Source: Closterium sp. NIES-65
Taxonomy: Eukaryota; Streptophyta; Zygnematophyceae; Desmidiales; Closteriaceae
Assembly: GCA_948144175.1 (NCBI GenBank)
Contig: CANXME010002655.1
Coordinates: 100,367 to 164,366, forward strand
Direction: 5' to 3'
DNA length: 64,000 bases
The notes under the pieces were generated by a model, which had not been told where the DNA came from, did not search any database, and saw only the letters and a list, made by a program, of their open reading frames with translations. The translations under genes and the position numbers were made by a program. This document shows positions 2,446 through 63,200 of the stretch, piece by piece. How positions within the stretch are numbered: position 1 is the first letter of the stretch; the number at the start of each line of letters is the position of its first letter.

Positions 2446-2490
2446 GACCTACCCGACTCTCCCAGCCCGGTGAGACTTCCAGCTGCTGCC

Positions 2491-17430: not shown

Positions 17431-17992
17431 TCTCAGGATCGTAAACGCCTTAGTCGGCAATAGTCTACTTGCTATCACCTATCGTGTTCTCCACGATCTC
17501 CCGAATCCAATGATATGCGCAGCTCTGCTTGAAGTTGTCAATACACACTTCAGCAATTTTCAGAATCTGATTGGTATGATTTCCAGAATGAGTACAAGCA
17601 GTTTTATAGTCAGGCAAGACACAAAGTGCGATTCGTAACTTCACTTGTTTCCCAGGTAACCGCGTGCGTCTCGTTTCACCCCGAGTCGCACACGCAACCG
17701 AACCGAATTCGCTGAACACTCCGCAAGTCCGAATCCCGAACTTTTTCGAACGCGCCTTGGTCTCGAAGCACATTTTTCCCCTCGTCAGTCTCATTCTCGA
17801 TGCTTCTCCTTCTCTCTCCCTCCTTCTAGCACATTTCTTCTCGATTTCTCTCCCGCTTCTCACGCCGTAGCCTCTATTCCCCACCGTAGGCCGATTTCCA
17901 CCGTTTTACACACTCGCTTCCATTCCGCCGTCATTCCGCCGTCGTAGATGCTTTCGCCTTAGGTTTCGTGGTTGGGCGAACCAACCCTAACA
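17431..17992 (-). repeat. 3' LTR of gag-protease element
   Basis: 562 bp. It shares its ends and nearly all of its sequence with 21539-22100. The differences include G/A and C/T changes such as CTATCACC versus CTATCGCC. Confidence 0.88.
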
Positions 17993-21538: not shown

Positions 21539-22100
21539 TCTCAGGATCGTAAACGCCTTAGTCGGCAATAGTCTACTTGCTATCGCCTATCGTGTTCTCC
21601 ACGATCTCCCGAATCCAATGATATGCGCAGCTCTGCTTGAAGTTGTGAATACACACTTCAGCAATTTTCAGAATCTGATTGGTATGATTTCCAGAATGAG
21701 TAGAAGCAGTTTTATAGTCAGGCAAGACACAAAGTGCAATTCGTAACTTCACTTGTTTCCCAAGTAACCGCGTGCGCCTCGTTTCACCCCGAGTCGCACA
21801 CGCAACCGAACCGAATTCGCTGAACACTCCGCAAGTCCGAATCCCGAACTTTCTCGAACGCGCCTTGGTCTCGAAGCACATTTTTCCCCTCGTCAGTCTC
21901 ATTCTCGATGCTTCTCCTTCTCTCTCCCTCCTTCTAGCACATTTCTTCTCGATTTCTCTCCCGCTTCTCACGCCGTAGCCTCTATTCCCCACCGTAGGCC
22001 GATTTCCACCGTTTCACACACGCGCTTCCATTCCGCCGTCATTCCGCCGTCGTAGATGCTTTCGCCTTAGGTTTCGTGGTTGGGCGAACCAGCCCTAACA
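21539..22100 (-). repeat. 5' LTR of gag-protease element
   Basis: 562 bp, partner of 17431-17992. It is followed on the minus strand by the tRNA-Met primer site and a short leader before ATG 21437. Confidence 0.88.
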
Positions 22101-22423
22101 GCGCGTGAGGGAGCGCGTGAGAGAGCGAGTGTGCGTGAGTGCGCGTGAGAGAGCGCGTGAGAGAGCGCGTAAGAGAGCGCGTGAGGGAGTGCGTCAGAGA
22201 GCGCGTAAGAGAGCGCGTGGGAGTGCGTGTGAGAGAGCGCGTGGGAGTGCGCAAGAAAGAGCGTGTGACAGACGGAATGCGCAAGAGAGTGCGCGAGAGA
22301 GAGCACGTGAGGGAGTGCGTGAGAGCCCGTGAGAGAGCGTGTGAGAGAGGGTGTGAGAGAGTGCGTGAGAGAGTACGTGAGAGAGCACGTGAGAGAGCGC
22401 GTGTCAGAGAGCGCGTGAGAGAG
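22101..22423 (+). repeat. 12-bp satellite, middle block
   Basis: Continuation of the array at 14442 after the 17431-22100 insertion, in the same orientation and unit. Confidence 0.9.
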
Positions 22424-23674
22424 TGTCGAAATATTTTGTCATGTTTTATAATTGCTTGTAGTTGTAGTTAGTGTAGTTATGTAAACTTTTGTTGGTGGTG
22501 CACCTTATTTTGTTTCTATGCTATATGTACCCCTGAACCTATAGTGAAACCACCTTTTCACCAATTTCTCTCTCAACTCACTCGACATTGCTCCCAAGGG
22601 AAAACCCGCTCGATACCTAAGTTAGGGCCTAGGCTACTAAGCCTAGGCCCCACCTTTCAACTCCTGTTCTTATTACTCTCGACATGTTATCGGAGCCGAG
22701 TGTTCGTCCTGGCCTGTGGGCCCACTTTACTTCCGCTGCTAAGATTTTACGGTCGCGCGCCTAGGGCGCGTGACGGTTTTATTTTTACCTTGTCCCGCCC
22801 ACGGGCGTGTGACTCCTTCCCTGCCCGTCGCGCGCCCCGTGGCACGCGACGGTGCCCTTCTACTGCCCATCGTGCGCCCCGTGGCACACGATGGTGCCCT
22901 GCTCGTCGTGTGCCCTGAGGCACACGATCGGGCCCTTTTATGCTACCCGTCGTGCGCCCCGTGGCACTGGCCCGCGACGGGCCTTTCAGCCCCTGCACTC
23001 CCTGCTGCCGCCCCTGACCCATCTGCACCGACGCCTCTTCGCCGCTCTGCGGCTTTCTTCCTTCCCACCCCCCCCTTTCTCTTGTCTCCCTGCAGCCGTG
23101 GGGAGGAGGGTATGGGGGTGGAGGGTGTTGGAGCGTGGGGTCAACTCTCTCCCTTTCCCTCCTCCTTCTTTCAGTCCCACCGCTGCAGCTGCCGCTGGGG
23201 GAGGAGGGTGTGAGGATGTGGGTGAGGAGGGGGAGTGGTACCGGGGTGGCGGGTGTGAGGCAACAAGCAGCCGTCCCTCCACCTCTCCTCTCTTCCCCCT
23301 TTCTCTGCTGCTTCTGCAGCAGTGTGGGGGAGGGGAAGGAGGAGGGTGAGGAGATGGTAGGGGTACCTGCTGTTGCTGTAACTACATACCTACCTACAAG
23401 CATTATGGGGGCGTGTCGAAATATTTTGTCATGTTTTATAATTGCTTGTAGTTGTAGTAAGTGTAGTTATGTAAACTTTTGTTGGTGGTGCACCTTATTT
23501 TGTTTCTATGCTATATGTACCCCTGAACCTATAGTGAAACCACCTTTTCACCAATTTCTCTCTCAACTCACTCGACATTGCTCCCAAGGGAAAACCCGCT
23601 CGATACCTAAGTTAGGGCCTAGGCTACTAAGCCTAGGCCCCACCTTTCAACTCCTGTTCTTATTACTCTCGACA
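22424..23674 (+). mobile_element. TRIM family 2, plus copy, in satellite
   Basis: 1251 bp. Its 261-bp LTRs (22424-22684 and 23414-23674) differ at about one site. They start TGTCGAAA, end CTCGACA, and are flanked by GAGAG duplications (22419-22423 and 23675-23679), which are less diagnostic inside a GA-rich repeat. The primer site TGTTATCGGAGC follows the 5' LTR at 22685. The interior has tandem CGCGCCCCGTGGCACGCGACGG-like units and no coding domain. Confidence 0.9.
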
Positions 23675-24166
23675 GAGAGTGCATGAGAGAGTGCGTGAGA
23701 GAGCGCGTGAGAGAGCGCGTGAAGGACCGCGTAAGAGATTGCATCAAAGAGCGCGTGAGAGAGCACGTGAGAGTGTGCGAGAGAGTGTGCATGAGAGAGC
23801 GCGTGAGAGAGAGAATGCGCAAGAGAGTGCGCGAGAGGGAATGCGACGGAATGCGTGAGAGCCCGTGAGAGATTGCGTGAGAGACCATGTGAGAGAGCGC
23901 GTGAGAGTGCGCGTGAGAGAGCGCGTGAGAGTGCGCGTGAGAGAGCGCGTGAGAGGGCGAGTGAGAGTGCGAGCGAGAGAGCGCGTGAGAGAGCGCGCAA
24001 GAGAGCGAACAAGAGAGCGCGTGAGAGAGAGAATGCGCGAGAGAGTGCGCGTAAGGGAGCGCGTGAGGGATCGCGTGAGAGAGTGCGTGAGAGAGCGTGA
24101 GAGAGCGTGTGCGAGAGTGCGTCAGAGAGCGCAGGAGAGAGCGCCTGAGAGCGCGCGTGAGAGACA
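23675..24166 (+). repeat. 12-bp satellite, right block
   Basis: The array resumes after the TRIM and again contains the GGACCGCGTAAGAGATTGCAT marker string (about 23727). It ends near 24166. Confidence 0.9.
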
Positions 24167-31449: not shown

Positions 31450-32384
31450 TTAGGAGAAATGGCTAGAGAAGAAATTGGGGCGGGGAGGAAATGGAGTGAG
31501 CAAAGCAGGTGCTTCTCGAGAGGAACCAAGAACAAGAACCAAGAAATGAAAAGCCTCGAATTCGAGTTTGACAGCTGTGAAAGGGACAGATATCTTGGGC
31601 TTTGGTTGGGGTCGTGGTGGAGCTGGGATGTTCATACGGCGCGACTCGGCAAAAACCCCGCCCACGCCTTGGGATGCACGAGGCGCGGAGAAATCGCGGG
31701 AAGCGTGGGCCGAAGTCGGCCACCCAGAATCCCACCAGGTTTGGACCTAGCGCGGCCTTGCGTGGCTCAGTGAAACCCACCAGGCTGCCACCGAAAGCTC
31801 CGCAGCCCCCAAAAAACCTAAAGAACCCATCTCGTTCTTACGCGCCGATGCATGCGCGACTCGGTAGAAAACGAACACGATTGGTCGGTAACATTGACGA
31901 GCGGGACATCCCGCGCATGCAACCGCGGGACACCAAAGGAGTGCTACTATTGGTTGTGCTATCTCGCAACTTATCGCGAACAAAATTCGCACAAGGATGG
32001 GTACGGAAAGCGCACAGCGAGATCCGGTTCGGTTACAGCTGGCGGGATCTGGTAGGCTCCATGCTGGCTGACACGTGCAGCAATTTGAACGAGCCACACA
32101 GCTGTGGCTGTTTGGTCGATGCGCGATCACGATAACGTGTCAAGCACGTCCACGCAGTGTCCGGTCATTACTCCGAGCATGCCTACATTTTCCACTTTCC
32201 GATCGCCAGTTGCATACCAAGCTCTTCCCTCTCATGACACACTGGATTCACCTGACTTAGACGGAAAACGGGACACCAGTATCGCGGTTACGTTGTGTGC
32301 CGCGCTCGAATGTCCGCGAGCAAATCGGTCGCGAGGTAGACGGGTCTAAGTCACACCCAGGTGTACAAGTAGTGACTGCGCATC
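31450..32384. other. Region upstream of the recombinase gene
   Basis: No coding sequence is supported. It probably contains the promoter and 5' leader of the gene starting at 32385. No clear TATA box or element terminus was identified. Confidence 0.45.
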
Positions 32385-35300
32385 ATGTTGACGCACGCGG
32401 TGAATAGGAGTAGGTGCAATCTCGCACGCCGCATGCATACCGTGAATCGCGTCGCGGCACCAATACTTCACGACTCCATCAATGCTCCGGGCAACACAAC
32501 CGCGCATCAAATCCATAATGCCGAACCGCCTACCGCTCCCGTGCATGGGGTGAACGCGCTCAACCCCACATGGAGCACCCCATACGTGCAGCCCGTGGTT
32601 TTTGGGTCCCGGATGCCCGCGTTCCACCCACAGCAACTGGTCAACGGGCTCCACCTAGCACCGCGACCACAAATACCGTTTGCAGCAGCGGCGGTCGCGT
32701 TACAAAATCAACCGGGTAATGTTACCGCGCAAGGAGTTTCCACGACTCATCCCGTTGGACAACACATTGCGTCCCCGTCCGTGCCCACTAGCCAGCTCTT
32801 TGGGATGCCTGTGCGTGGCTTCGTAGGGCCGCAGTACTCGAACGTGGGATTCAGGTACGGGTACTTCGGCGTTAAACCAGACCCCATGGTGCACGCACCC
32901 GCATCTGTCGCGACGCCTCCTGTCGCGCCGTCAACACCATTCCCCAGCGCGATTCATCCGGAAAGCCAGCCAGCGGTGCAAGCCCCGCCAGACCCTAGAG
33001 AAGCATTAGTTGTCGGTTTGGACACACGGGCGCGAACAGACGGCCCATCATCGAACGCGGATGCCGGTGGTTTAGGGCGTGCGGTGAATGGTGGAGCGGG
33101 GATGAATGCGAGCGCGCGTGCACATTCGCCGCCAATATGGAACGTGAACTCACTGTTGCCCGGAAACCCCGACATCCACATCCGCACCCCCGCGCATCCG
33201 ACTGTAGCGTACGCGACTGGTGTAGGTGGGCAACCACAGGCGAACGCGGGGCGTGGAGTGGGTGCAAGCGGAAACGCGGTAAGGGGAAGAGGGACGGGTG
33301 CGAGAGGGAACGCGGGAAGAGGGACAGGGGAGAGAGGGAGCACGGCTAGAGGGAGAGGTGCGAGACGAAGGGGTGGGAGAGCAAGCGCGGGACGTGGGAC
33401 AGGTGTGGGATCGAACGAGTATAGTGCGAACGGGCAGGGAGCGCATGAGGTGACAGGTAACGGCGGCTCGGGTAGCGGTGTTAACGCGAACGGCGGGTCC
33501 GGTAACGGGCCAGTTAATAGACCGTGTATAAGGAGGCGGAGAGTCGATGTAGTGCCGCACACGGCACGCAACGTCTCCCGGGAGGGGAGCGAGGGGGCAA
33601 GCGATGAGGATGACAAGGACGACGCTGACGATGCGGACGATAGTTGGAATGGCGATGACGAAAACTACCTATCGAACTCGCTGTCCGGGCTCAACGAGGA
33701 GGAGGCGAAAGACAACGAACGGGTGCGGGGTACGCGGAGGGACATTGAGGTCCCTATCGCGGATTGGAACAGGCTAGGTGTGGACGACACACCGGCCGCG
33801 AAACGAGAGATGTGCTACGGAATCCTCTACGGTGTCTCTGAGGCCACGCTGAAGAAGTATCGCGGTTGGGCCAACGAGTACAAGCGGTTCATGGCTCACG
33901 AGCTGCCTAAACTGGACGCGGGTAGGTTTGGTGATGAGGCCGCGTTGAGAAACGCGGACCCCGACGAGATAGGGGCCGCGCTCGAACAGAACATGGGTGG
34001 TGACTGGAAGATGGCGGAGGGCGACGAGCAGTGGTTCCACGGCTCTGAGACGAATCCGTGGCGCTTACGCAAATACGTGACCTTCCTCGCGAACGAGACA
34101 GTCGCGCAGGCGGACAGGATGGCCACACTCAAGCGGCCAGAGAAGACCTTGAAGAAGAGACGCCAGTGCACCCCGGCAATGCTGATGGGGCGTCTCAAGG
34201 CTTTGAACCTGCTCATCAAGCTGGACAAGGCCATCTTCAGGAAGCCCGTTCTGAACCTGCTGCGCGACTTTGCGGAGTGTCGCATCTGGGTCCGCGTTCA
34301 AGTACGCAACCAGTACAAGCGGTTTATCGCGTAAGTATACGTTCTCAGTGAACGCATTTAATGCCCAACAATACCGCGTCCACTAACACCCGCACTATCG
34401 CCCCAATCGATGCGCAGGGAACACATGGATCGCCATCGAGGCACGGCCGCGGACACGTACACCCCGGACGAGTTCAACTATATGATGCGGAAGACCAGCA
34501 TGGACGCGATCTTGACCAGCTTCACACTAGCCAAGAAAGCATACACGCAGGCAATGCATCGCGACCTCTGCATCCGGACGATGACCGTGCTCGGCCATCA
34601 CACTCTGGCCCACGGATGCACGATCAGAAACCTGCAGCTGCCAGACATGATGATGTGGAAGCTCGGCGCAAAATCGGAGACCGATCGACTGAGGAATGCG
34701 TTCATGTTTGTTTGCGCGTGCAGGACGGGCAAGACAAACAAGGACTTCTCGCTCAACTACATATCTGCTATGAGGCACATAGATTGGACGTTGTGCGCGG
34801 TCGGAGCCACGCTGCTGTGGCTGCACTGGGTGTACGACTTGGTTCCCATCCTCTACAAGGACATAGCCCCCCCTCTCGACTTTACGGAACCCTCGACGTG
34901 GTACGATCAATACCTGTTCTTCCCCCTTCGCGCTGGCAATGAGAAGCAAATACCGCCCACGACTCATCACGACTGGGCGGCGAAGATTCTCCAGGATGCG
35001 GGAATCACATGCTCGCGTGCGGTACACGCGACCAGGGCTGGGGGGGCGCAGCACGTGTCCGCGGACGGAATGCCTTCGGATCAGCTGGCGAGGCTGGGGG
35101 GTTGGCGCTTCATCAACGTGATGACTAAGCACTACCTCACAACCATTCCGAGGGAGGCCGTGCTGCTGAAGGCGGGCTTCACCGGGGTTGACGGTGACTA
35201 CTTCCTGGGTCGCGCAACTGTTCCGGTCAGCGATAAGCTGGATGAGCTACTGAGGAAGCACATTTTCCCATGGGCCGCCGCGGACAAAGAACAGCAACAT

Positions 35301-36593
35301 GTATGTGTGGGCCGCGCATACGCGACCGCAAGCATCCCACATAACCCTCTGGCACCGCGTTCACTACCGCGTTGTTTTCTTGTCACAGTGCAAGGATTAC
35401 AACCGCAAGATGGTGAAAAAGCAGAAGCCGGAGAAGCAGGACACCACGGGGCTAAACATAATGAAGGAGCTGGATGGTGACGCTAGGATGGCGGTCGCGC
35501 AAGACCTGGCAATGTATTACATCCACCAGCCGCGACACCCGTACGTGGTCAACAACCCGCTCTGCCAGACGGAGGAATTTGCGTCGTGGGCTGCAGATGT
35601 CTCATTGGCAAATCAACTCGCCATAGTACAGCGCAACACACCTACACTGACCCAGCCCGCAGTAAGTACTGCATGGTCGCGTTATCTTTCGGCTGTGATG
35701 TCAATGCCAAACCATAACAAGTTCGCGGTCGCTTTCTGTCCATGCAGGAGGTGAGTACCAGAATGGACGCGCAGAACCAAGTGACCATCCTCACTGAGTA
35801 CCTGACTCGTTCACAAGCGGACAACACCAGACTGGGCCTAGAGTTGGTCGCGACTCATAACCGGGTGAAAGAGCTGGAGGGGCTGCTGGAGGATCGCGAT
35901 CGGAAGCTGGCCGCGAAGGACGAGCGCGTGAATAATTTGGAGGCCCAGCTGTCGCGGCTCACCGTGAGCAGCTCAGGGCCGACCGCGGTTCCGAACTAGG
36001 CAACCAATCCTGGAGCCGCGGCCGCGCCGACCAATGCCACAACTCCCACCGAGCAGGGGACGCGGAAGAAACCCGCACCGCCCACCAGGGAACAGACGAT
36101 TCGGGACGCGATCGTCCTTCCATGGGTCAACGCCACCAAACCGTCAGACGGATGGAAGCTGTACAAGACAACGCACCCGCTGATCCGCGAGAGTCCAGAG
36201 TCGCTTCTGGCCCAGCCCCGCGGTGCAGTTACGCGAATGGCCGCGCTCATTGGGGAGGAGGGAGGCGGTCAGAACGTGATAAACCGTGTCAAGCGACTCA
36301 TGAACTTCATCGCCCACAGGGTGGAGCAAGGAGACGACATCGCGGTAGTGCTCGACAAGCTCGACCTCGTGTCAGGAGCTGTGGGCATGTCGGGTGTATC
36401 GGAAGGGATCGCGGTAAAGAAGAAGAGTGTTGACCTGGAACTGAGCCAGCTCAAGAAGGGTTCTCCGGTGGAGTTGCAGTTGCGTGTGAAATGGATGCTT
36501 GTTCGCGACCGTCTCATCAATGCCTCTCTTCCCGCGTCTGAGTTCACGGTCGCGTGGCCCCAGTACTGTGCGCTGATGCCAGACTTACAGTAA
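32385..36593 (+). CDS. Crypton-like tyrosine recombinase, four exons
   Basis: Predicted site-specific DNA recombinase of a Crypton-type element. Exons 32385-34330, 34418-35300, 35389-35661 and 35748-36593 all have GT-AG borders and matching phases (about 1300 residues). The N-terminal 440 residues are Pro-, then Gly/Arg-rich (RGRGTG units near 300-345), then acidic. A core-binding-like helical domain follows (near 480-650, KYRGWANEYKRFM). The catalytic set is R751 (CRTGKTNKD), H852 and R855 (HATR), W878 (LGGW) and nucleophile Y888 (KHYLTT), the usual order and spacing. The GKTN box and the YLTTIPRE...LLKAGF...YFLGRA...IFPW series match Crypton/Ndc10-type proteins as I know them. Exon 3 has WAADVSLANQL, exon 4 a coiled coil. 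An in-frame TAG (35997-35999) precedes 198 further open codons and probably was CAG. Catalytic residues lie before it. Confidence 0.78.
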
Positions 36594-37091
36594 ATGGATT
36601 GACCTCGCTTTTGTTCGTCTTGATATCACTGTCTTCGGGTGCGATGTTATGGGTCCCTATAATCGACCGCGAGTGTTGTTGTTTTGCGCGAAAATAGTGC
36701 TGATTTACATCGCGGCCGTGGTGATCGTGGGCTGCTGTTGCCTAATGTATATAGATTGTTTGCGTCGTAGTGTGTACAGTGATAATGTGTGGGAATACCT
36801 GAGTCGAATGCAGATTACTACTAAAATGGCACACGCGCAAACACACGCACCCACTGAATCCTACAAAAGATCACACACAAAGTACGTAAGTTAAGAACAG
36901 TCCACCGCGAGTATAACTCCAGCACATATTGTTCCAAATGTCAACACTATGTTCTCACGCGCGCGCGCACATACACACACACACACGATATACTACATGC
37001 ACACAGATCCGCAAGCCCAGCACAATCCACCGCAAGTAGAACTCAAGCATGGCGGACAAGCTGTGCACATGCTACGCGATACTACACGCAC
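36594..37091. other. Spacer between convergent genes
   Basis: About 500 bp with short CA/CG runs at 36830-37000. The 3' ends of the plus recombinase gene and the minus partner gene face each other across it. Confidence 0.55.
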
Positions 37092-40000
37092 TCAAGTCCG
37101 CTTCTTCACACGATCCTTGGGCAGGGCAAGGTACAAACCCAAGGAATCCATCTGCTTCCCTGCCACCGAGCAGTCGCACCAGGTGATGATAACGTCCACC
37201 GTTTCGCGGGCGGCCAACTCAATGTGCCTGAGATCGCGAGACTTTGCAACGACCTCGTTCACGACTCCAGACACGATCGCGGCGGCGACCGCCTTCGGGT
37301 CCGCGACAACTTGTGGCTCATCTTCCTCAGCCTGCTGATGTTCGCGGCAATTGCGCTTTCGCACCGCATTGATGACAAACGCGGATACTACGGGGAAGAG
37401 ACGGCTTCGCTCTCCATAGCAACCAGCAGCTCGGGCGGCCAGATTTCCATTATCCGCTGCGGCAGTGACGTTAGAACCGCGAGTGACCTCCCACACCATT
37501 GCAATGGCGCATGCGATCGCTCCCGCGTAGTCCGTCGGCTCCACATCGCCGAGATCCGCTTCTTCTGCTGCAGCCTCCTTGCCTACCACCGCAGCCCATG
37601 CAATTACGTTGGTGGTGTGCATTCCAGGCTTGGTTAGCCCGCGATAGGAATCGAACATGCGTTGCCACCTGCCACGCAGTGGGTTGGAGCGGCCAGAACA
37701 TGATAACATACCAAACCGTATGAACGCACTAGATGATGGTGGATTGGCACAGCTCACCTGTCCTTGCTTGCCACGAGGTTGCGGTAGTGCATGGTGATTA
37801 AGAGGCCCGTATGTAACCCCTCGGCGATGGACAGGTCCGCGGCCCATTCTCGGATCTGCTGCTGGCTCAGGTTCAGCCTGGGGTCGACCTTCCCGTCGTA
37901 GGGATACATTGCGATCGCGGTCTTGTACTGCAGGTCTTGGCGGTTGCCATGTCCGAGCCATCGCTTCTTCCCCCCCAGATGGGGTTCAGAAACCAATCCG
38001 GGCCCGCCCCTGGGTGGAGCGCGGATGCCGCAGCCCCTGCGCTTGGGGCCGGTGTCACCATGTCCTCCCGTTGTGCCACCTTCCACGACCACGGGGTCTC
38101 CGTCTTGCTCGTCCGCGCTCTCCCCGCCGCTATAAACATCGACCACGGCCTCCCCACCCTGCTCTCCTCCGTCGCCCGCCTCGACCCACCTGCTCACGAG
38201 ACCCTCCAGCTCCTCATCTGCATCGTCCTCGTCGATCGTGTACACGGGTGGAGGGGGCAACTTCTTGCCACCCCGTCCGCGTTTCTCCGCCTTGACCTCG
38301 ACCGAGGCCGCGATAGGACTTGCAGATGCCAGTGCGCTGTGCAGATTTCCCGTGGTGATTGCAGCACGAGCGGGTGCGAGCGTGGTCTGCCTGCCCTCTG
38401 CCGCAGCAGCCGCTGCGGACTGGACCTCACGCCTGGAGGCCAGCGAACCCGCAGCAGCCGGCGCCTCTCCATCCTCCGCCTTACCCTTGCCCCGACCCAC
38501 AGTAGTTGTCACTGTTGCGGTTGCCCCGGCAGGGCCCGGTGGTTTGGGTGCAGCTTCTCCAGGTGGGATGGAGCACGAGCTCGAACCCGGTTGACCAGGC
38601 GGTGCTGCACCTCGCAATGTAGCGCCCCACTTCTGCTTCAGCATGTCCTGCACGCTCGGATTGCGCACCGCAGCCGCTGCCTGGGGACCTCTCTGCCTCT
38701 TCGCCCCCCGTTGATTCTCCGCCTTCGCACCCGTTGCCCGCTTTCCATGCTCTGCATCCCCGGGCTCGGCAATCTCCGTCGCGGCCGTTCCTTCATTATC
38801 CGTGCGCGGCGGGGGGCCTCCTCCAACGAGCGCGATGAGGGTGTGCAGCGCGTTCGTGACCCCGCTGGTGGTGACTGCCCGCTCTGCTGTCGCGGAGACC
38901 GCGGTCGACATGTTGTCGATCTTCCGCGCAACCTCGTCCGTCAGCTTCTTCTGAGCGGTTTCCATGGAGTCTGCCACCACCCCCTGCACCTGTCCCAGCC
39001 TCGCGTCCACTCGCCCCAGCACCAACGCCTCCTGGTTACGCGTATCGACCAGGGCCGCTCTTTCCTGCGCGATCGCCCTCGCCTCCTTCTCCAACACCCG
39101 AACCGCATTAGCAAGCGCGGACGCAAGCTCCTCAGAGCCCACGACCGCGACCCCACCAACCCCCGACTCCTGGCGTTTCTTCAGCCGTGCGTTCTCTTCG
39201 GCCTGCGCTGCAAGCCTGCATTCGAGCTGCAGGATCTCGGCAGCAAGCTTATGCGATGGCAACGAGGATAGGGACGCGTGATCACGCGCACCTGTCACGG
39301 GACTCTTGCCCGCGACCTCACCACTCGGGCCCGCGCTTCCAGCACCGGGGGCCAAGTGCTGCGCGAGGTGGTTGATGCTCTTGCCGGATGTAGTGGGCCT
39401 GCTGGATGCCGCGGCCGCTACCACGTGAGCCTCCGCCTCCTCCTCGCTCGACTCCTCCCCCTCACGCACAACAGTGCGGTCAGCCTCATCGCGGGTTGCA
39501 CCCTTAGTCGCGGTATCCTCGGCCCCTTCGCCATTAGCGTGGACCACCGTCCCCCCCCCGAGCACCTCCGCGGTTCGAAACACCAGCGGCACCTGTGAGA
39601 GCGAGAACACCATGGTCAGCAACTTGCACACCCGTTGCCACTTTCTGCACCTTCCCCATTTCAGCACCTTCAGCCTCACCGCCGTGCTTGGGTCGCGTCA
39701 AATCCACGCTCAAGTTGAACGCGAGCTCTTCGGCGGTTTGGTACGCCTCATGCCGCAGTGCATTCAGAGTCTTCGCGGTTGGCCTCGAGAATTGCGGCCC
39801 GGATCCACTGGGAGCGACCGCGTCCAACTGGGCAAGGATCTTGTCGAACGCGAACAAACAAGCGAGATTGCCGCAGGAGCCCTTCAATGACGTCGCGTCC
39901 TGGAAAACATAACATGGGGTTTGTTAGCACCACTGCAACTATTCGCGGTCATCGAGAACACGTACACAACACAGACGTACCAGATCCAACAGACACTTGG

Positions 40001-40548
40001 GATCCTTAAGCTGGCGGGAGCGGGTGCACTGAATGGAGCCGCGTGCAAAATCCTCGTCAACGCGACCCTGAAACCACCTGCCCAAAAGCACATACATATC
40101 CACACGAACGCACGGTTAGCGACATGAGCCTCGGTGCGGAAATGAACGTGGTACTGATGATAAACCAGTACGCGGTACTCACTCCACAATCGCCTCCACC
40201 GCGGTGACGTGTTCCGCACCACCAGTGGGAATAGCAACGCGAACGAACCGCGTGTTCCAAGTCTCGTCACCGTCAAGCGACAGGTGGTCAGGGTGAAGCA
40301 TAATGAGCATGCTCGCGTTCGAGCGCTTCTTGTCGATCAAGTCCCTGAACGTGCCATTGACGACCGCGCTAAACCACGTAAACGAGTGCATTCCCTGTAC
40401 AAGTGAACACTCCCAATGAACACTCACTCGGACCAGATGCAGAAAACCACCAGGCTGCACTCCATCAAACCGGCAAAGGCTTGGACCGCTTCATCGCGAC
40501 CCGCGACTATGTCCGCGACAACACCGCTCGTCACGATTCGGACGTGCT

Positions 40549-41470
40549 TGTGAAAATTTAGAAGAAAGAAGAGGGTTGCACTAGCAAGAATGAGGATACA
40601 AATAGCAAACCCTAGAAGGGTTGTACTCGCTATAGAGCACCCCACTACAGGCTAGAGCATAATATTCTGACACACCCCCATAGCCAAAGTGGGGTGTAAT
40701 CAGCAGAGCAAGCAAAGCAGTACAAGCTCAGGGTGGATCACAATGTCACCACACATTCTGAGCACAAGTTCAAGAAGCAATAGTTTAAAGTTCACAATTA
40801 TGAGCAAAGCTAGAGGCTACCGCAGAGGGCTAGTGTGGAGGAGGAGGGAATATGAGAGGAGAGGAGGTAGTGGGCGGCAGCTGAAGCTGCTGACACACGG
40901 CGCAACTGGAGCAACTGGCACACGGGCAACTGGAGCAACTGGCATACTGGCAACTGGAGCAACTGGCACACGGGCTACTGGAGTAATTGGCTCCGCGGCT
41001 AAAAGTAGCGGCAGACGATCAACGGACTCACGGGCGACTGGCGCAACGGGCTCACGGGCGACTGGCGCAACGGTCTCACGGGCGACTGGAGCTGCTGGCT
41101 TCTCGGCGGCCACCCCCTTCAACCTCCCCAAACTATCCCACCCCCATTTCACACACCCCCTACTGCACCCCTAGGGTCACTCACACCCCACCCCCTAGCA
41201 CCACTCCGTCGACTCCCACACACCCACCCCCCTCAGCGGCAGCTGCAGCAGTGGGAGACAGAGGAGGAGGAGGAGCAGGGGAGACCACACACCCGCCACC
41301 CCCCACTCGCCACCCCCAAACCCGAACACAGGGCAGGGCGGGATGGTGGGTAGAGAGGTTACGGGGGGGGGGGGGCGACGTGCGGCCTCCCTGGGCGCCA
41401 AAGCAGGCGGCAGAAGGGGCGACGCTCGCCCCCTTCCCCCAGGTCGCCTCGACAGGCGACGGGAAAAGGT

Positions 41471-41510
<40 letters not shown>

Positions 41511-42079
41511 CGGTGCACGTGCCCCCGGTGCGCCGCGGCTGGCGACGAGGCATGGCCGGGGCGGGGCCAGGGCCGCAAGTGGCGGCGGCGGGGCCGCTGG
41601 CGGCGACGACGGGGCTGCTGGCGGCGGTTCGGGGCCGATAGGAGCGGCGACGGGGGGCGACGCACGGGTCCCCGTCGCCCGTCGCAGCGCCTCCCGGGGG
41701 CGACGCGCCGAGTGACGGGGCAGAAACCCGTCGCACGCCTCGGGGCGCACGGCGGGCAGAAAACCGCCGCACGCCTCGGGGCGCACGGCGGGCAGAAAAT
41801 TGCCGCGCGCCTCGGGGCGCACGGCGGGAAGAAAAACTGCCGCACGCCACGGGGCGTGCGGCACAGAGAGTAGCAGTAGCAGTTGCAGCGGAAGCAACGA
41901 GGTGGTGAGCCCACCCACAGGATCGATCCAAGGGGATCGACCTACTCTGATAGCATGTGAAAATTTAGAAGAAAGAAGAGGGTTGCACTAGCAAGAATGA
42001 GGATACAAATAGCAAACCCTAGAAGGGTTGTACTCGCTATAGAGCACCCCACTACAGGCTAGAGCATAATATTCTGACA
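40549..42079 (-). mobile_element. TRIM family 1, copy B
   Basis: 1531 bp. Its 124-bp LTRs (40549-40672 and 41956-42079) are identical by eye. The target duplication is GTGCT (40544-40548 and 42080-42084). The primer-site remnant CTACTCTGATAGCA lies beside the right LTR. It has the same architecture as copy A at 18535, including the copia-like 3' UTR (40673-40800) and CCTCGGGGCGCACGGCGGG tandem units near 41735-41830, plus a 40-bp poly-G run. It interrupts an exon of the minus-strand gene. Confidence 0.92.
41471..41510. repeat. Poly-G homopolymer (40 G)
   Basis: An unbroken G run inside TRIM copy B. Copy A has only a short G-rich stretch at the equivalent point (about 19329-19346). The length may be real slippage or a consensus error. 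Confidence 0.85.
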
Positions 42080-42178
42080 GTGCTCATGCACCTCCTTCTC
42101 CATATACCTCCGGACAATCACGCTGTGCGGGACGGTGTAAAACACGGCGGGAAAAAGCTCAACCATAAACAACGCGAC

Positions 42179-44154
42179 CTAAAAGCACAGCGGAGGTATG
42201 CCGCGGCCTGCACTACCCCCTAGTAAATATTGCTGACATGTCGCGAACAGCCTAAACACCGCGACCATAAACAACGCGTGCATAGTGAAGTCAGGGAATG
42301 GAACGCATGGATCTCACCCGGTGACAAAGTCGAACAGACGGGCCGTGAACGGATGCTTATCCTCAGCGAGCAGCTTCCACTGTTCGGGGGGGAGGTCCAC
42401 CGTGGCTCCCGCAACAGAGATGATGGTCGGACAGGAGGCGGCCTCCTTCGACCCAGCTCTAAGCGCCTTCATTTCGCGGTTCATTACTGGTACGACCGCA
42501 AGAGTGCGACCACAGGTACGGTGTATCTAGGACGAACGGTACGCGAAACAGTGCTCACGGCAGAAAATAAGAGCTAAGCTTAACGCTACCAAGCGCGAAC
42601 GCGGCCAAGCAGAGTCTTTGCTAGCACTAGGCGATGAGGAACTCTACGTGGAACGGACGAGCAGGAAGAAAACAAGATGTGAAGACGGAGAACGAAAATT
42701 AGCACCAGGTGCCCGTACCGAGAACCTAAGAGAGGGCCGAGGGGAATCAAGAGACGGCACTCACGGTCAAACTGCGCGGGCCTCTCACCCCGCGCCGCTT
42801 TCGACTTGACAAGCGGGGAGGTTCCGCAACATGCACGCTTGTGCAGCCAACGTCCGCCACGTTGCACACCATCCGCGAGCCCCGTTCGTAGCGGGCTGCC
42901 AACTCCCGCGGAGAGAGAATTTTCCTCGTCGCGACCGCCGAGGTCCAAGGTAACGATCAGGTACACCAATTTGGGTCACCCGAATTAACACTACACTCCG
43001 TTATATTACACGTAAACTCGCAATTGAATATTTCCCCGATGCATTAGAGATTATATCGTTTGATCTTTCGAATGGCGTACACTCCGCTCCGTAAATTTAA
43101 TCCCAGCATGCTTTCCGGGAACGATTGTTCGCGAGGGTCTTGCGAGCATTCCGACGCTCGTAAACGATGGCGATTGGCCGGCTCCATTTCGGGAAGCACG
43201 GAGATGGCTTCGCACGCGCGCCGATTCACCCGTCGCTTCGAAACCGGCTCCCATTGGCCGAATCCTTTTCGGCCAGCCCGAATTGCCATTCGCACGCGCG
43301 GATTTGCATGCGAAATGCTTCGCGAGGGTTCTCCGAGGGACAGACCACTCGGAAACGGCTACGATTGGCCGGATCCGTTTCGGCGCGCTGGGGTTCGGCC
43401 CTCGCCCTCGGATTGGAGAGCGATGAGTTTCGCGAGGGGTTTCGCGAGCCAGGGCTGGGCCCGGGGGGGGGCCGGGGTTGGGACCACGCTGCGTGGCGCT
43501 GGCGTGGCCCGGGCTCGGCGCGGGACCACCCCGCCAGCTTGCTCCGCCGCCCGGATCTCGCTAGGGACCTGGGAGGGGGCGGGGGACTCCCTCTCGCGTG
43601 CGATTCCCAGCTGCGAGTCGCGACACACCAGGCATCCGCGTGCGGCCCTGGTGGAAACCCGTTTCCACCAGGAGGGGGACCTGGTGGGATTCCTTCCACC
43701 AGGGCCCGGATGGACTGGCAAGAAATTTCTGCCAGCTTAGAAGGAGGCACCAAATCCTATATACAATACTACTGAACTTGCTGACACATCAGATACAGTA
43801 CAGTAGTTGCAAACATAAAACCCACTATAGTAGATACTTCTATAAGTACCACAATGTTTCTTATAAAAAGGATACAACTCTATGCAACCCTTTCGACGTA
43901 AACGTCGAGTCTTGTTTTGAAATGGCGGCGGAAATCGCTGCCAGTATAGGGTGCTGAGCCTGGGCAGGTACAGCTCGCTATTGCTGTAGTATATGTTTTT
44001 TTTCCAGGGTGAACGACGTGAAGACGAGACTGCGGGAGAGAAAGCATTGGGAAATTATGTCACAAGTAACCAACATGGGACGCGATAACGTGAGTAGTAA
44101 AAACAAAACTCTTATGATCACCCTATCGGGTTTGCTGACGGGCTTGGTAAGTGG
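42179..44154. other. Flank of the partner gene with degenerate repeats and hairpins
   Basis: It may contain 5' exons of the minus-strand gene (see 37092-42178). From about 43130 to 43390, ATTGGCCGxxTCC followed by TTTCGG occurs three times with GCTTCGCxCGCGCG blocks between, so it is an old tandem repeat. Paired palindromes lie at 43647-43706. No other gene is supported. Confidence 0.45.
43647..43706. other. Two successive palindromes with CCTGGTGG/CCACCAGG arms
   Basis: A perfect 12-bp inverted repeat (CCTGGTGGAAAC, CC, GTTTCCACCAGG) at 43647-43672 is followed within about 10 bp by a second hairpin with the same outer arms (CCTGGTGG ... CCACCAGG). The function is unknown. Confidence 0.75.
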
Positions 44155-49500: not shown

Positions 49501-51381
49501 GTCCTACTGTCACGCGTCTCCTTGCTGCTACTGTCACTGACCCTTCCTTCGAGTCGTCTGCTGCGTCTGCCCTTGTCACTGAGCTTGTCGACTTTGCTGC
49601 GCGATGTCGTCTAGACTACGCTGCCAGTCTTGTCGCTGAGTCTGAGTCTGCCTGTCCTCCGTCCGTCGGGGGTGAGTGTGCTCTTGGCACGGACGTCCTT
49701 GAGGACAGGCAGGAGGAGTTCCAGTGTCTAGCCGCCGCTTCACCTCATCTCGCGTCTGTACTGCTAGCCCCTGAGGGAGACCCGGATGCACCAGACATCC
49801 CGACTCCGCGCTCTTACGCGGAGGCGATAGAGGGTCCCTACTCCTCTCAGTGGCAGGCAGCTATGGATGCAGAGATGGCTTCCTGGAAGTCCACAGGCAC
49901 CTACGTCGACGCTGTTCCCCCTCCTGGGGCGAACATCGTCAGTGGCATGTGGATTTTCAGGGTGAAGCGGCCGCCGGGTTCTCCGCCTGTCTTCAAGGCG
50001 CGTTACGTGGCTCGTGGCTTCAGTCAGCGGCAGGGGGTTGACTACTTTCAGACCTTCTCCCCCACCCCGAAGATGACCACTCTTCGGGTTCTGCTGCACG
50101 TTGCTGCTCACCGTGACTACGAGCTGCACTCTCTCGACTTCAGCACAGCTTTCTTGCAGGGCAGCCTGCACGAGGAGATCTGGCTGCGTCGCCCACCTGG
50201 CTTCACTGGGTCTTTTCCTCCTGGTACCAAGTGGAGTCTCCGGCGTCCAGTCTACGGTCTCCGCCAGGCGCCACGTGAGTGGCACGACACACTGAGGACT
50301 ACGCTCGCGGCACTTGGGTTTGCTCCGTCTACTGCCGACCCGTCGCTGTTTCTACGCACCGACACCTCTCTACCGCCGTTCTACATCCTCGTGTACGTCG
50401 ACGACTTGGTCTTTGCCACAGCTGACACTGCTGGACTCGCCTACGTGAAGTCTGAGCTGCAGAAGAGACATATGTGCACTGACCTGGGTGAACTGCGTAG
50501 CTACCTTGGCTTGCAGATCACCCGGGACAGAGCACGCCGCACCATTACCTTGACTCAGTCACACATGGTGCAGCAGGTCCTTCAGCGCTTCGGCTTCACG
50601 TACTCCTCGCCTCAGGCCACTCCTCTGCCTACTCGCCACTCGCTCTCAGCTCTGCCTTCGGATGAGTCCGTAGAGTCGAGTGGCCCGTTTGCAGAGCTTG
50701 TTGGCTGCCTCATGTACTTGATGACCTGCACACGACCTGACCTTGCATACCCTCTTAGCATTCTCGCACGCTATGTTGCTCCTGGGAGACGCTGACCAGA
50801 GCACATGGCTGCAGCGAAGAGGGTGTTGCGCTACTTGTGCAGTACGTCGGGCATGGGGCTAGTGCTTGGAGGGCGCAGTCCAGTGGTCCTCACTGGGCAC
50901 GCAGACGCTTCTTGGGCTGACGACCAGGCTACGCAGCGGTCGTCACAGGGTTACACCTTCAGCCTTGGTTCCGGCTCTGTTTCGTGGCGGGCTACCCGCT
51001 CGTCTTCTGTTCTCGGCTCCAGTTGTGAGGCTGAGATCTACGCTGGGGCTATGGCTGCACAGGAGTTACGCTGGCTCACCTACCTGCTGACCGACCTTGG
51101 AGAGCAGCCTCGTTCTCCTCCAGTTCTGTACGTAGACAACAAGGCCATAATGGCCTTGTGTCTGAGCAGCGACTGGAGCACAGAACGAAGCACATTGCTC
51201 TCCGCTACTTTCTTGCTCGTGAGCTACAGCAGCGTGGACAGTTGCGACTTGCGTACGTGGCCTCTGAGGCCAACACTGCTGATGTCTTCACCAAGGCACT
51301 TGCGCCTTGTGATCATTAGCGTTGTTGCACGCAGTTGGGTCTTGTGCCTGTCTTGCCTCACTTGCTCTCCTCTTGACCTTG
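45457..51381 (+). pseudogene. Copia gag-pol, copy 2, frameshifted
   Basis: Same polyprotein as copy 1, from ATG 45457 (MATPTVLAF). Gag, protease (DSGASRSFF) and integrase are in one frame to about 48474. A run of 10 C at about 48460-48469 (8 in copy 1) then shifts the frame. The RT part (YVDDLVFA) continues in another frame from about 48475 to 50795. There CGA of copy 1 is TGA (stop). RNase H resumes, a one-base loss near 51158 shifts frame again, and CAG of copy 1 is TAG at 51317-51319. The C-run length could be a sequencing error, but the others are clear substitutions or loss. The Gln run is longer than in copy 1. Confidence 0.9.
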
Positions 51382-52430: not shown

Positions 52431-55400
52431 TCAAGAAGTGAGCAGGTGAGGCAAGACAGGCACAAGACCCAACTGCGTGCAACAACGCTGATGATCACAA
52501 GGCGCAAGTGCCTTGGTGAAGACATCAGCAGTGTTGGCCTCAGAGGCCACGTACGCAAGTCGCAACTGTCCACGCTGCTGCAGCTCACGAGCAAGAAAGT
52601 AGCAGAGGGCAATGTGCTTCGTCCTGTGCTCCAGTCGCTGCTCTCGACACAAGGCCAGCATGGCCTTGTTGTCTACGTACAGGACTGGAGGAGAACGAGG
52701 CTGCTCTCCAAGGTCGGTCAGCAGGTAGGTGAGCCAGCGTAACTCCTGTGCAGCCATAGCCCCAGCGTAGATCTCAGCCTCACAACTGGAGCCGAGAACA
52801 GAAGACGAGCGAGTAGCCCTCCACGAAACAGAGCCGGAACCAAGGCTGAAGGTGTAACCCTGTGACGACCGCTGCGTAGCCTGGTCGTCAGCCCAAGAAG
52901 CGTCTGCGTGCCCAGTGAGGACCACTGGACTGCGCCCTCCAAGCACTAGCCCCATGCCCGACGTACTGCACAAGTAGCGCAACACCCTCTTCGCTGCAGC
53001 CATGTGCTCTGGTCGGTGTCTCCCAGGAGCAACATAGCGTGCGAGAATGCTAAGAGGGTATGCAAGGTCAGGTCGTGTGCAGGTCATCAGGTACATGAGG
53101 CAGCCAACAAGCTCTGCAAACGGGCCACTCGACTCTACGGACTCATCCGAAGGCAGAGCTGAGAGCGAGTGGTGAGTAGGCAGAGGAGTGGCCTGAGGCG
53201 AGGAGTACGTGAAGCCGAAGCGCTGAAGGACCTGCTGCACCATGTGTGACTGAGTCAGGGTAATGGTGCGGCGTGCTCTGTCCCGGGTGATCTGCAAGCC
53301 AAGGTAGCTGCGCAGTTCACCCAGGTCTGTGCACGTGTGTCTCTTCTACAGCTCGGACTTCACGTGGGCGAGTCCAGCAGTGTCAGCAGTGGCAAAGACC
53401 AAGTCGTCGACGTACACGAGGATGTAGAACGGCGGCAGAGAGGTGTCGGTGCGCAGAAACAGCGACGGGTCGGCAGTAGACGGAGCAAACCCGAGTGCCG
53501 CGAGCGTAGTCCTCAGTGTGTCGTGCCACTCACGTGGCGCCTGGCGGAGACCGTAGACTGGACGCCGGAGACTCCACTGAGTACCAGGAGGGAAGGACCT
53601 AGTGAAGCCAGGTGGGCGACGCAGCCAGATCTCCTCGTGCAGGCTGCCCTGCAAGAAAGCAGTGCTGAAGTCGAGAGAGTGCAGCTCGTAGTCACGGTGA
53701 GCAGCAACGTGCAGCAGAACCCGAAGAGTGGTCATCTTCGGGGTGGGGGAGAAGGTCTGAAAGTAGTCAACCCCCTGCCGCTGACTGAAGCCACGAGCCA
53801 CGTAACGCGCCTTGAAGACAGGCGGAGAACCCGGCGGCCGCTTCACCCTGAAAATCCACATGCCACTGACGATGTTCGCCCCAGGAGGGGGAACATCGTC
53901 GACGTAGGTGCCTGTGGACTTCCAGGAAGCCATCTCTGCATCCATAGCTGCCTGCCACTGAGAGGAGTAGGGACCCTCTATCACCTCCGCGTACGAGCGC
54001 GGAGTCGGGATGTCTGGTGCATCCGGGTCTCCCTCAGGAGCTAGCAGTACAGACGCGAGATGAGGTGAAGCGGCGGCCAGACACTGGAACTCCTCCTGCC
54101 TGTCCTCAAGGACGTCCGTGCCAAGAGCACACTCACCCCCGACGGACGGAGGACAGGCAGACTCAGACTCAGCGACAAGACTGGCAGCGAAGTCTAGACG
54201 ACAGCGCGCAGCAAAGTCGACAAGCTCAGTGACAAGGGCAGACGCAGCAGACGACTCGAAGGAAGGGTCAGTGACAGCAGTAGCAAGGAGACGCGTGACA
54301 GTAGGACTGGCAGCACGAAGAGAGTCCGACTCCGGGTCGGCAAGAGCAGGAAGAGAGGAAGCAGGAGGAGAAGGCAAAGGGGCACGCAGAGGGGCAGTGG
54401 ACGGACGCACTGACATCCGGTGCGTGCCAGGGACAGGAGGAGGACGCTGACGCGACCCGCGACCACTAGCGCGCGCAGGACGAACAGGCGACGCAGGACG
54501 AGACGCAGGCTCACGACGCTCAGTAAGACCTCCAGTCGGACCAGCGTAGGGAGAAGGAGCAGGCAAAGGGGAGGCAGGCTGTAGCTGTGGCTGTGACTGG
54601 ACAAGCCGTGGACCCTCTAAGGGAGGAGGAGGAGGACCAGGAGAAGGTGTAAGACCAAGAACCTGCTGCAGGAGCGGAACGAAGTACGGTCGGGGCCGCG
54701 CGGCGACGCCAGAAACAGCAGGGACAGCACCAGTACCCCCAGCAGGAGTACCTGCTCCAGCAGCACCTCCAGCACCACCCCCAGTAGCTCCAGAACCTCC
54801 AGCAGCACCACTAGGAGCACTGCCAGGCGGACCGCCAGCGGCAGTCTTAGCGCCAACACCCTCAGCAGCACCAGCTCCAGGAGAACCCTCAGACCCAGTA
54901 GCTCCAGCACCCACAGTACGAGCACCTCCGGGACGCGCGGCAGCAGTACCCTCTGCAGCCGAAGAACCACCAGCACCAGCAGCACGCCTCCAGCGCCTGG
55001 TAAACCACTCACGCAGCTCCTGTGGGGAGAGTGGCTCACGGCGAGACGAAGCACCTCCAGGCAGAGCACCCCCAGGCACAGCACCCCCAGGCACAGCACC
55101 CCCAGGCTCAGCACCCCCAGGCTCAGCACCCCCAGGCTCAGCACCCCCAAGCTCAGCACCCCCAGGCTCAGCACCCCCAGGCTCAGCACCCCCAGGCTCA
55201 GCACCCCCAGGCTCAGCACCCCCAGACTCCGCACCCCCAGGCCCAGCTCCCGCAGCAGCACCAGAGTCACCAGTGACCTCGACAGGCTCGACCGCGTCTA
55301 CCTGGGACACACCTGAAGGGGCAGGACCCTTAGGGGGGAGGGGGTCTACCGGGGGGGGACCTGGTACGAAGAAGAGCGGGGGTGGGGGGAGGGACGGAGT

Positions 55401-60254: not shown

Positions 60255-63200
60255 TGAACGAGAATGGAATGACTATGAACGAAGTGAGTACAAATAGGAA
60301 ACCCTAATTGGGTTGTACCCCCTATGGGATACCCCACTATAGCCTACACAAATATGTAAGCTATAATGTTCTGACACACCCCCATAGGCAAAGTGGGGGA
60401 GAACAAGGGGTCACAAGACCAGTCAAGCAAAGCAAAGCAAAGCTCAGGGTGGATCACAAAGTCACCACACATTCCGAGCACAAGTTCAAAGGCCAGAAGG
60501 CCAGTTCACATGCAAGATCATATATAGAGATATACAAGAGTCAAGTAAGCAAGAGCAAGAGTATATATAGGTGAAGGTACAAGCAAGGTCAAGAAGTGAG
60601 CAAGTGAGGCAAGACAGGCACAAGACCCAACTGCGTGCAACAACGCTGATGATCACAAGGCGCAAGTGCCTTGGTGAAGACATCAGCAGTGTTGGCCTCA
60701 GAGGCCACGTACGCAAGTCGCAACTGTCCACGCTGCTGTAGCTCACGAGCAAGGAAGTAGCGGAGAGCAATGTGCTTCGTCCTGTGCTCCAGTCCCTGCT
60801 CTCGACACAAGGCCAGCATGGCCTTGTTGTCTACGTACAAGACTGGAGGAGAACGAGGCGGCTCTCCAAGGTCGGTCAGCAGGTAGGTGAGCCAGCGTAA
60901 CTCCTGTGCAGCCATAGCCCCAGCGTAGATCTCAGCCTCACAACTGGAGCCGAGAACAGAAGACGAGCGGGTAGCCCGCCACGAGACAGAGCCGGAACCA
61001 AGGCTGAAGGTGTAACCCTGTGACGACCGCTGCGTAGCCTGGTCGTCAGCCCAAGAAGCGTCCGCATGCCCAGTGAGGACCACTGGACTGCGCCCTCCAA
61101 GCACTAGCCCCATGCCCGACGTACTGCACAAGTAGCACAATACCCTCTTCGCTGCAGCCATGTGCTCTGGTCGGTGTCTCCCAGGAGCAACATAGCGTGC
61201 GAGAATGCTAAGAGGGTATGCAAGGTCAGGTCGTGTGCAGGTCATCAGGTACATGAGGCAGCCAACAAGCTCTGCAAACGGGCCACTCGACTCTACGGAC
61301 TCATCCAAAGGCAGAGCTGAGAGCGAGTGGCGAGTAGGCAGAGGAGTGGCCTGAGGCGAGGAGTACGTGAAGCCGAAGCGCTGAAGGACCTGCTGCACCA
61401 TGTGTGACTGAGTCAGGGTAATGGTGCGGCGTGCTCTGTCCCGGGTGATCTGCAAGCCAAGGTAGCTACGCAGTTCACCCAGGTCAGTGCACATGTGTCT
61501 CTTCTGCAGCTCGGACTTCACGTAGGCGAGTCCAGCAGTGTCAGCTGTGGCAAAGACCAAGTCGTCGACGTACACGAGGATGTAGAACGGCGGCAGAGAG
61601 GTGTCGGTGCGCAGAAACAGCGACGGGTCGGCAGTAGAAGGAGCAAACCCAAGTGCCGCGAGCGTAGTCCTCAGTGTGTCGTGCCACTCACGTGGCGCCT
61701 GGCGGAGACCGTAGACTGGACGCCGGAGACTCCACTGAGTACCAGGAGGGAAGGACCTAGTGAAGCCAGGTGGGCGACGCAGCCAGATCTCCTCGTGCAG
61801 GCTGCCCTGCAAGAAAGCAGTGCTGAAGTCGAGAGAGTGCAGCTCGTAGTCACGGTGAGCAGCAACGTGCAGCAGAACCCGAAGAGTGGTCATCTTCGGG
61901 GTGGGGGGAGAAGGTCTGAAAGTAGTCAACCCCCTGCCGCTGACTGAAGCCACGAGCCACGTAACGCGCCTTGAAGACAGGCGGAGAACCCGGCGGCCGC
62001 TTCACCCTGAAAATCCACATGCCACTGACGATGTTCGCCCCAGGAGGGGGAACAGCGTCGACGTAGGTGCCTGTGGACTTCCAGGAAGCCATCTCTGCAT
62101 CCATAGCTGCCTGCCACTAAGAGGAGTAGGGACCCTCTATCGCCTCCGCGTAAGAGCGCGGAGTCGGGATGTCTGGTGCATCCGGGTCTCCCTCAGGGGC
62201 TAGCAGTACAGACGCGAGATGAGGTGAAGCGGCGGCCAGACACTCGAACTCCTCCTGCCTGTCCTCAAGGACGTCCGTGCCGAGGGCACACTCACCCCCG
62301 ACGGACGGAGGAGAGGCAGACTCAGACTCAGCGATAAGACTGGCAGCGTAGTCTAGACGACAGCGCGCAGCAAAGTCGACAAGCTCAGTGACAAGGGCAG
62401 ACGCAGCAGACGACTCGAAGGAAGGGTCAGTGACAGCAGTAGCAAGGAGACGCGTGACAGTAGGACTGGCAGCACGAAGAGAGTCCGACTCCGGGTCGGC
62501 AAGAGCAGGAAGAGAGGAAGCAGGAGGAGAAGGCAAAGGGGCACGCAGAGGAGCAGTGGACGGACGCAGTGACATCCGGTGCGTGCCAGGGACAGGAGGA
62601 GGACGCTGACGCGACCCGCGACCACTAGGGCGCGCAGTACGAACAGGCGACGCAGGACGAGACGCAGACTCACGACGCTCAGTAAGACCTCCAGTCGGAC
62701 CAGCGTAGGGAGAAGGAGCAGGCAAAGGGGAGGCAGGCTGTAGCTGTGGCTGTGACTGGACAGGCTGTGGACCCTCTAAGGGAGGAGGAGGTGTAAGACC
62801 AAGAACCTGCTGCAGGAGCGGAACGAAGTACGGTCGGGGCCGCGTGGCAACGCCAGAAACAGCAGGAACAGCACCAGTACCCCCAGAAGGAGCACCCACT
62901 CCTACAGCACCTCCAGCAGCACCTCCAGTAGCTCCAGAACCTCCAGCAGCAGCACCAGGAGCACTGTCGGTCGGACCGCCAGCGGCAGTCTCAGCGCCAA
63001 CACCCTCAGCAGCACCAGCTCCAAGAGAACCCTCAGACCCAGCAGCTCCAGCACCCACAGGACGAGCACCGCCGGGACGCGCGGCAGCAGTACCCTCTGC
63101 AGCCGAAGAACCACCAGCACCAGCAGCACGCCTCCAACGCCTGGCAAACCACTCACGCAGCTCCTGTGGGGAGAGTGGCTCCCGGCGAGACGAAGCACCC

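Follow-up and report, generated by a model that had tools for sequence, protein, structure and literature searches.

The closest described relatives of the element reported here are the Cryptons, which the accessible text of PMC3212892 characterizes (for CryptonF and CryptonS) by a tyrosine recombinase (YR) with the residue set R-H-R-Y, by the lack of terminal inverted repeats and by short terminal direct repeats that are taken to be the recombination site. Table 1 of that paper (Kojima and Jurka 2011) lists as hosts fungi, animals, oomycetes and a diatom, some oomycete Cryptons being said there to carry a second gene, which encodes a C48 peptidase; in addition, a partial Crypton transposase is mentioned for one Fanzor element in the accessible text of PMC3627910. 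Here we describe an element found in a stretch of 64,000 bp, hereafter the window, from the zygnematophycean alga Closterium sp. NIES-65 (contig CANXME010002655.1, positions 100,367 to 164,366). It contains two genes that face each other and is very probably a two-gene Crypton-like tyrosine-recombinase DNA transposon, as it has exact ends with both genes inside them, the two genes occur jointly in three families of copies, purifying selection is seen and there is no duplication beyond a short core. A preliminary description of the window had suggested that this convergent pair forms one larger element, and the ends, the gene content of the unit and the pairing in three families all support it.

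As inserted, the element occupies positions 31623..43718 (12,096 bp, or approximately 10.56 kb without an LTR-type (long terminal repeat) insert). The copies on contigs C1673 and C1769 can be aligned with the window between about 31622 and 43718 and no further, and empty sites are found on contigs C2078 and C1954. The interval first proposed, 32385..42178, lies inside the element, but copy alignment and empty sites show that the full unit is larger; looking for the ends through other copies, as had been recommended, located them from the C1673/C1769 alignment, 20 left flanks and 20 right ends. The 5' terminal CTGG is at 31623..31626 (+ strand), the element proper starting from (C)TGGGATGTTC. 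Among the 20 left flanks the TGGGATG start is present in 16 copies and the preceding C also in 16, and 17 of these flanks are distinct and not array junctions. The 3' terminal CTGG is at 43715..43718 (+ strand), with the element proper running up to GGACT(GG), of which GGACT is kept in all 20 right ends and GGACTG in 17. Searches of the genome with the two ends gave at least 40 scored matches for each. The termini carry short direct repeats, which in Cryptons have 4-6 bp, and no terminal inverted repeats, the repeat being CTGG at both ends here and a core of 3-5 bp in other copies. Close to the ends there are short motifs, two CCACCAGG near the 5' end (31732..31784, + strand, at 31732 and 31777) and four CCTGGTGG/CCACCAGG at the 3' end (43647..43703), the latter including 12-bp inverted arms, CCTGGTGGAAAC/GTTTCCACCAGG, with 2 bp of spacing. 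The LTR-type insert (40549..42079) has terminal repeats of about 125 bp and a GTGCT target duplication (40544-40548 and 42080-42084); it arrived later, is no part of the element and is missing from both other copies compared there (C1673 and C1769).

When the flanks of the element in the window are joined, they match C2078 and C1954 without interruption (282 and 283 of 317 aligned columns, respectively). The empty site reads GAGTTGGCAAG and the filled one GAG-CTGGGATG...GGACTGG-CAAG. Because of their level of divergence, C2078 and C1954 are judged to be related places and not the other allele of the window site. A second and unrelated case is offered by contig C1175, where an element lies inside an LTR whose uninterrupted form is present in the window at 40578 (GCACTAGCAAG). 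The paired flanks of seven insertions show cores near ACTGG, containing CT in six and TT in the empty site of the window, and no target duplication goes past this short core (about ACTGG) at the empty sites on C2078 and C1954 or at the LTR site of C1175.

Gene 1 is placed on the + strand and is spliced, as had been described, with GT-AG introns joining its four exons (32385..34330, 34418..35300, 35389..35661 and 35748..36593) into one long frame. Exon 1 encodes a long low-complexity N-terminal part followed by a presumed core-binding domain, the latter conserved in families B and C (see below), and exon 2 encodes the YR catalytic domain with R751, K754, H852, R855, W878 and Y888. The residues R751, H852, R855, W878 and Y888 are exactly where the preliminary description had put them, and the blocks GKTN (which holds K754), YLTTIPRE (at 888) and IFPW (at 931) were also located. 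The set R, K, H, R, W, Y is invariant across four aligned sequences (two of family A, one of B and one of C). The suggested comparison with Ndc10 domain 2 gave a clear result, since the Pfam model NDC10_II matches the spliced gene 1 protein at 1.1e-14 and the homologous exon of families B and C at 2.7e-10 and 8.8e-14, in all cases above the curated cut-off; the catalytic region of gene 1 is in this respect of the same sequence family as yeast Ndc10. None of 14 control prokaryote genomes searched had a match to NDC10_II, and no relatives of the YR exon in viral and prokaryotic contigs were confirmed by tblastn after a pattern filter. Weak matches in the right register were obtained to Cre (E 0.9) and to a phage integrase family (0.0045 for family C and 0.047 for the window). 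The GCR1_C domain, which the preliminary description had included in the Crypton-type domain picture, did not turn up, the C-terminal regions encoded by gene 1 in families A, B and C having no match to it up to E 10; in this gene 1 differs from CryptonF proteins, which have GCR1_C according to the accessible text of PMC3212892. We infer from these features that gene 1 encodes a tyrosine recombinase, which would cut and rejoin DNA via Y888.

Exon 4 has an in-frame TAG at 35997-35999, after which the frame is open to the stop at 36591-36593. Among 30 copies read at this codon, CAG is found in 22, TAG in five, CCG in two and CAT in one, and a tiny intron or readthrough at this position was rejected because of the 22 copies with CAG.

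The best Pfam model carries the name of a yeast centromere protein and tandem arrays are present, which might suggest a repeated host family of DNA-binding genes, Ndc10-like and of centromere type. That explanation is hardly credible when all the catalytic residues are retained and the units have exact ends, unrelated flanks and empty sites.

The second multi-exon gene announced on the opposite strand, facing gene 1, is real and its GT-AG signals were found, but the span first given to it includes the later LTR-type insert and ends before the probable start, an ATG at 42484. On the - strand, gene 2 comprises a probable first exon (42318..42484), exon b, which the LTR-type insert divides into a portion before it (42085..42157) and a portion after it (40428..40548), exon c (40183..40394), exon d (39981..40077), the long exon e (37758..39899) and a last exon that encodes a conserved C-terminal domain (37092..37668). 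The frame of exon e changes along its length in the copies of the window and of C1673, and it is unbroken in C1769. There was no match up to 0.01 in NCBIfam for the two pieces of gene 2 scanned, and nothing useful among the structures of the PDB. The Pfam matches of gene 2 are all under the cut-off and were put down to chance; they comprise CDC27 (0.0003), which falls in low-complexity sequence of the family C element L047, Perilipin (0.003-0.004) and others that are weaker. Homology of the last exon to the C-terminal region of gene 1 was also considered and rejected (hhalign probability 0.3).

Elements of the DIRS type also use a tyrosine recombinase (accessible text of PMC3212892), and the unit could be imagined as a DIRS-like retrotransposon minus its reverse transcriptase. 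We find this very improbable, given that no reverse transcriptase or RNase H match was found in the scanned exon products of families A, B and C (the scan did not extend to six-frame translations of the non-coding remainder), that genes 1 and 2 occupy most of the unit and that the termini are a short core and not the repeats of DIRS-like elements.

The YR exon has at least 133 scored matches in the genome to which the window belongs (874 Mb, 2,400 contigs), alleles included. The genome searches score only the best candidates, so that the numbers of matches are lower bounds, and alleles are separate rows, as seen from C2357, C1879 and C228, which are one insertion with identical flanks. Among the matches listed, we distinguished by reading the identity listing, not by a tree, family A (59 rows, YR identity of at least 71%), family B (44 rows, about 40-42%) and family C (30 rows, about 39-40%). 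For each family, partners were sought with its own last gene-2 exon as the query, and they were counted only if they lay on the opposite strand and no more than 12 kb downstream of the YR exon. A facing gene 2 was found for 52 of the 59 rows of family A (49 within 4 kb, with 49 distinct partners, three being shared), for 43 of the 44 rows of family B (40 within 2.2 kb) and for 29 of the 30 rows of family C (28 within 2.3 kb). The pairing used 87 of 89 gene-2 rows for family A, the two omitted fragments (C1851:1032720 and C1980:522) being unable to lower the number of pairs, and for family C the 29 listed gene-2 rows on family C contigs. With the gene 2 of family B as query and the best 150 candidates scored, a partner appeared for only three of the 30 family C rows, the rest being found with family C's own gene 2. 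The preliminary description had let its proposal stand or fall with the joint travel of the two genes, and in these three families they do travel together. The gene 2 of family A, compared directly with the B and C loci, gives weak convergent matches (E 4e-6 to 0.007), and the last-exon domains of the three families can be aligned end to end at 22-27% identity.

In comparisons between the copies of the window, C1673 and C1769, the ratio of nonsynonymous to synonymous changes (Ka/Ks) takes values of 0.094-0.152 in the YR exon and 0.067-0.195 in the last exon of gene 2, with 0.192-0.468 at the end of gene 1 exon 1; for gene 1 these values cover two of six segments, the anchors of the other four not having been found in other copies. 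Gene 2 might be a passenger, useful to the element or to the host in some other way and dispensable for movement, and its lack of a family match and the free change of some of its segments would agree with that. This is nevertheless quite unlikely, since its place and orientation are constant in three families and its last exon is under strong constraint.

Some observations weigh against a two-gene transposon. A single-sequence AlphaFold model of gene 1 exon 2 reached a mean pLDDT (predicted local distance difference test) of 33.6 and no fold was obtained. No convincing Pfam match and no recognised domain were found for gene 2 in the products of families A, B and C, and its six remaining segments, with few changes each, have Ka/Ks of 0.167-1.007, some values being near 1. 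Moreover, seven of the 59 family A rows lack a scored gene-2 partner, and for ten gene-2 rows, all with an identity of 40% or higher, no YR partner was scored. With regard to these rows, C1770 breaks off where gene 1 ends and continues into a repeat present four times in the window, C2251 retains other gene-2 exons, and two more look, from their spacing, like short units in the C1769 array; the gene-2 rows of at least 40% identity left unpaired in family A number 13, three of which are larger pieces of genes with a smaller piece paired. Finally, an assembly would show neither a circle nor any activity of the element.

Elements also occur in head-to-tail arrays. At a unit-to-unit junction in C1769 the next unit begins immediately, the junction reading GGATGGACTGGGATGTTC with one core between two ends. 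In this array (G000:C1769:2608227-2646923) the spacing of the 5' ends is 10,422 and 10,423 bp for long units and about 5.94-5.97 kb for short ones, which have a truncated YR and no gene-2 match and are intermixed with the long units, as if a shortened derivative had been amplified too. Arrays with a single-core junction fit, as indirect evidence, an extrachromosomal circular intermediate, which is a feature of Cryptons. In C1995 (loci L063-L102) one copy has on its left side the 3' end region of a second copy, in inverted orientation; therefore elements insert into each other.

The mechanism we propose for the two-gene transposon is as follows. The gene 1 protein would cut and rejoin DNA through Y888, the element would leave as a circle with the junction GGACTGGGATG, and the circle would integrate at short cores containing CT or close to CT; integration at the junction of a resident element would give rise to arrays. 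With less certainty than for these steps, the gene 2 protein may be a helper specific to the element, which would bind its DNA, perhaps at the subterminal CCACCAGG motifs, and could assist recombination or expression.

The history of gene 2 seems to be different from that of gene 1 in some elements. In 15 of the 52 paired family A rows, YR identity to the window is 87-92%, whereas the gene-2 piece lying nearest has 41-60% identity to that of C1769 (two of these 15 pairs are more than 9 kb apart and one element supplies two rows), in contrast to elements of similar YR identity such as C1541 (YR 89%, gene 2 90%) and C637 (92% and 91%). The element on C2059 shares 85.5% DNA identity with the window over 31776 to 36580, ending just before the stop of gene 1, and past 36580 three short patches alone align, one of them near the 3' end. 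Two elements of family C, L047 and L048, share 97.7% identity throughout gene 1 as against about 70% where gene 2 lies, and among the 29 paired rows of this family gene 2 is at 64-65% in three and at 90-100% in the others. Gene 2 may have been exchanged as a cassette with its border at the stop codon of gene 1, an explanation preferred over faster change of gene 2 because the border is sharp. It is tempting to suggest, although we consider it unlikely, that this green Crypton lineage depends on a swappable gene 2, keeping recombinase and ends and trading gene 2 just after gene 1, with gene 2 conferring specificity or countering silencing as host and element race against each other. If true, the swappable gene 2 would represent a new protein family that serves a tyrosine-recombinase transposon as helper.

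The same divergence, far greater in gene 2 than in gene 1 between some elements, would also agree with gene 2 being an anti-silencing or regulatory factor like VANC of Arabidopsis VANDAL, which would bind motifs of the element and keep it expressed with no direct part in recombination. The short motifs are indeed clustered at the ends (of the eight CCACCAGG/CCTGGTGG occurrences, six are no more than 160 bp away from one), and VANC targets are likewise often tandem repeats that vary among related elements, according to the accessible text of PMC5735166. No Pfam match of gene 2, however, points to VANC, and we hold this role to be possible but rather unlikely.

The window copy itself is decayed in both genes, having the TAG at 35997 in gene 1, the LTR-type insert in an exon of gene 2 and a frame change in exon e, and it probably does not move by itself.

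As far as its sequence goes, the two-gene transposon behaves like a Crypton, with the R-H-R-Y set, NDC10_II, short direct repeats and no duplication beyond the core; this assignment is based on the profile match and the set of features and not on a tree including named Cryptons. Its architecture had been called unusual, which holds for the conserved facing gene of an unrecognised family; a second gene is in itself not unheard-of, but the one known from oomycete Cryptons encodes a C48 peptidase (accessible text of PMC3212892). The same text describes copy number as very low in most Crypton hosts, in contrast to the numbers found here. Within the open full-text literature naming Crypton or Starship, as far as its text was accessible and with subscription papers, preprints and Repbase outside this scope, there was no green-lineage Crypton and no second gene of such a kind. 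The novelty is in the host group (within the literature covered), in the copy number and above all in the conserved facing gene of an unrecognised family.

Starship elements of fungi are, in the sources accessible to us, also large tyrosine-recombinase transposons. Their captains belong to a different Pfam family, DUF3435, which is absent from the gene 1 matches reported at E up to 1, and the unit described here, unlike a Starship, has 10.5 kb and two genes, with no cargo seen. A recombining enzyme accompanied by a second element protein is also known from two-gene DDE (aspartate-aspartate-glutamate) transposons such as MuDR (where mudrA and mudrB are convergent), VANDAL and Harbinger. The likeness to these is one of architecture, and they differ in their DDE chemistry, inverted repeats and target duplications.

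Other features of the window and genome were observed. An open frame of 2010 residues at 2470-8502 of the window resembles a copia-type retrotransposon polyprotein, as judged by reading alone; similar stretches occur near 49821-50781, 53027-53978 and 61185-62137, and parts of it recur in the window. Long arrays of the 12-bp unit AGCGCGTGAGAG are present at 14453-17431, 22100-22423 and 23674-24164. Elsewhere in the genome, other head-to-tail repeats of about 9,133 bp (C108, C311, C317, C643, C678, C734, C799, C823, C887, C959 and C1215; loci L001-L008) carry two other tyrosine recombinases on opposite strands, of which the one read is XerC/D-like, with 336 residues and a match below the curated cut-off; these repeats may be the concatemeric assembly of a plasmid-like circle from an organelle or a bacterium. 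The rbcL of this genome is of a green type, with MSPQTETK close to its start, which is taken to indicate a streptophyte host. Copies of rbcL are found on opposite strands and at varying distances in C97, C162, C824, C1848, C2174, C40 and C75, as if they came from a plastid inverted repeat or several plastid arrangements.

Cryptons are little understood, and this genome, with its large number of copies, its exact ends, its empty sites and its tandem junctions, makes their mechanism directly testable. Moreover, the presence of a conserved gene facing the recombinase in all three families suggests that transposons of the tyrosine-recombinase kind have evolved helper proteins, like several DDE transposons.

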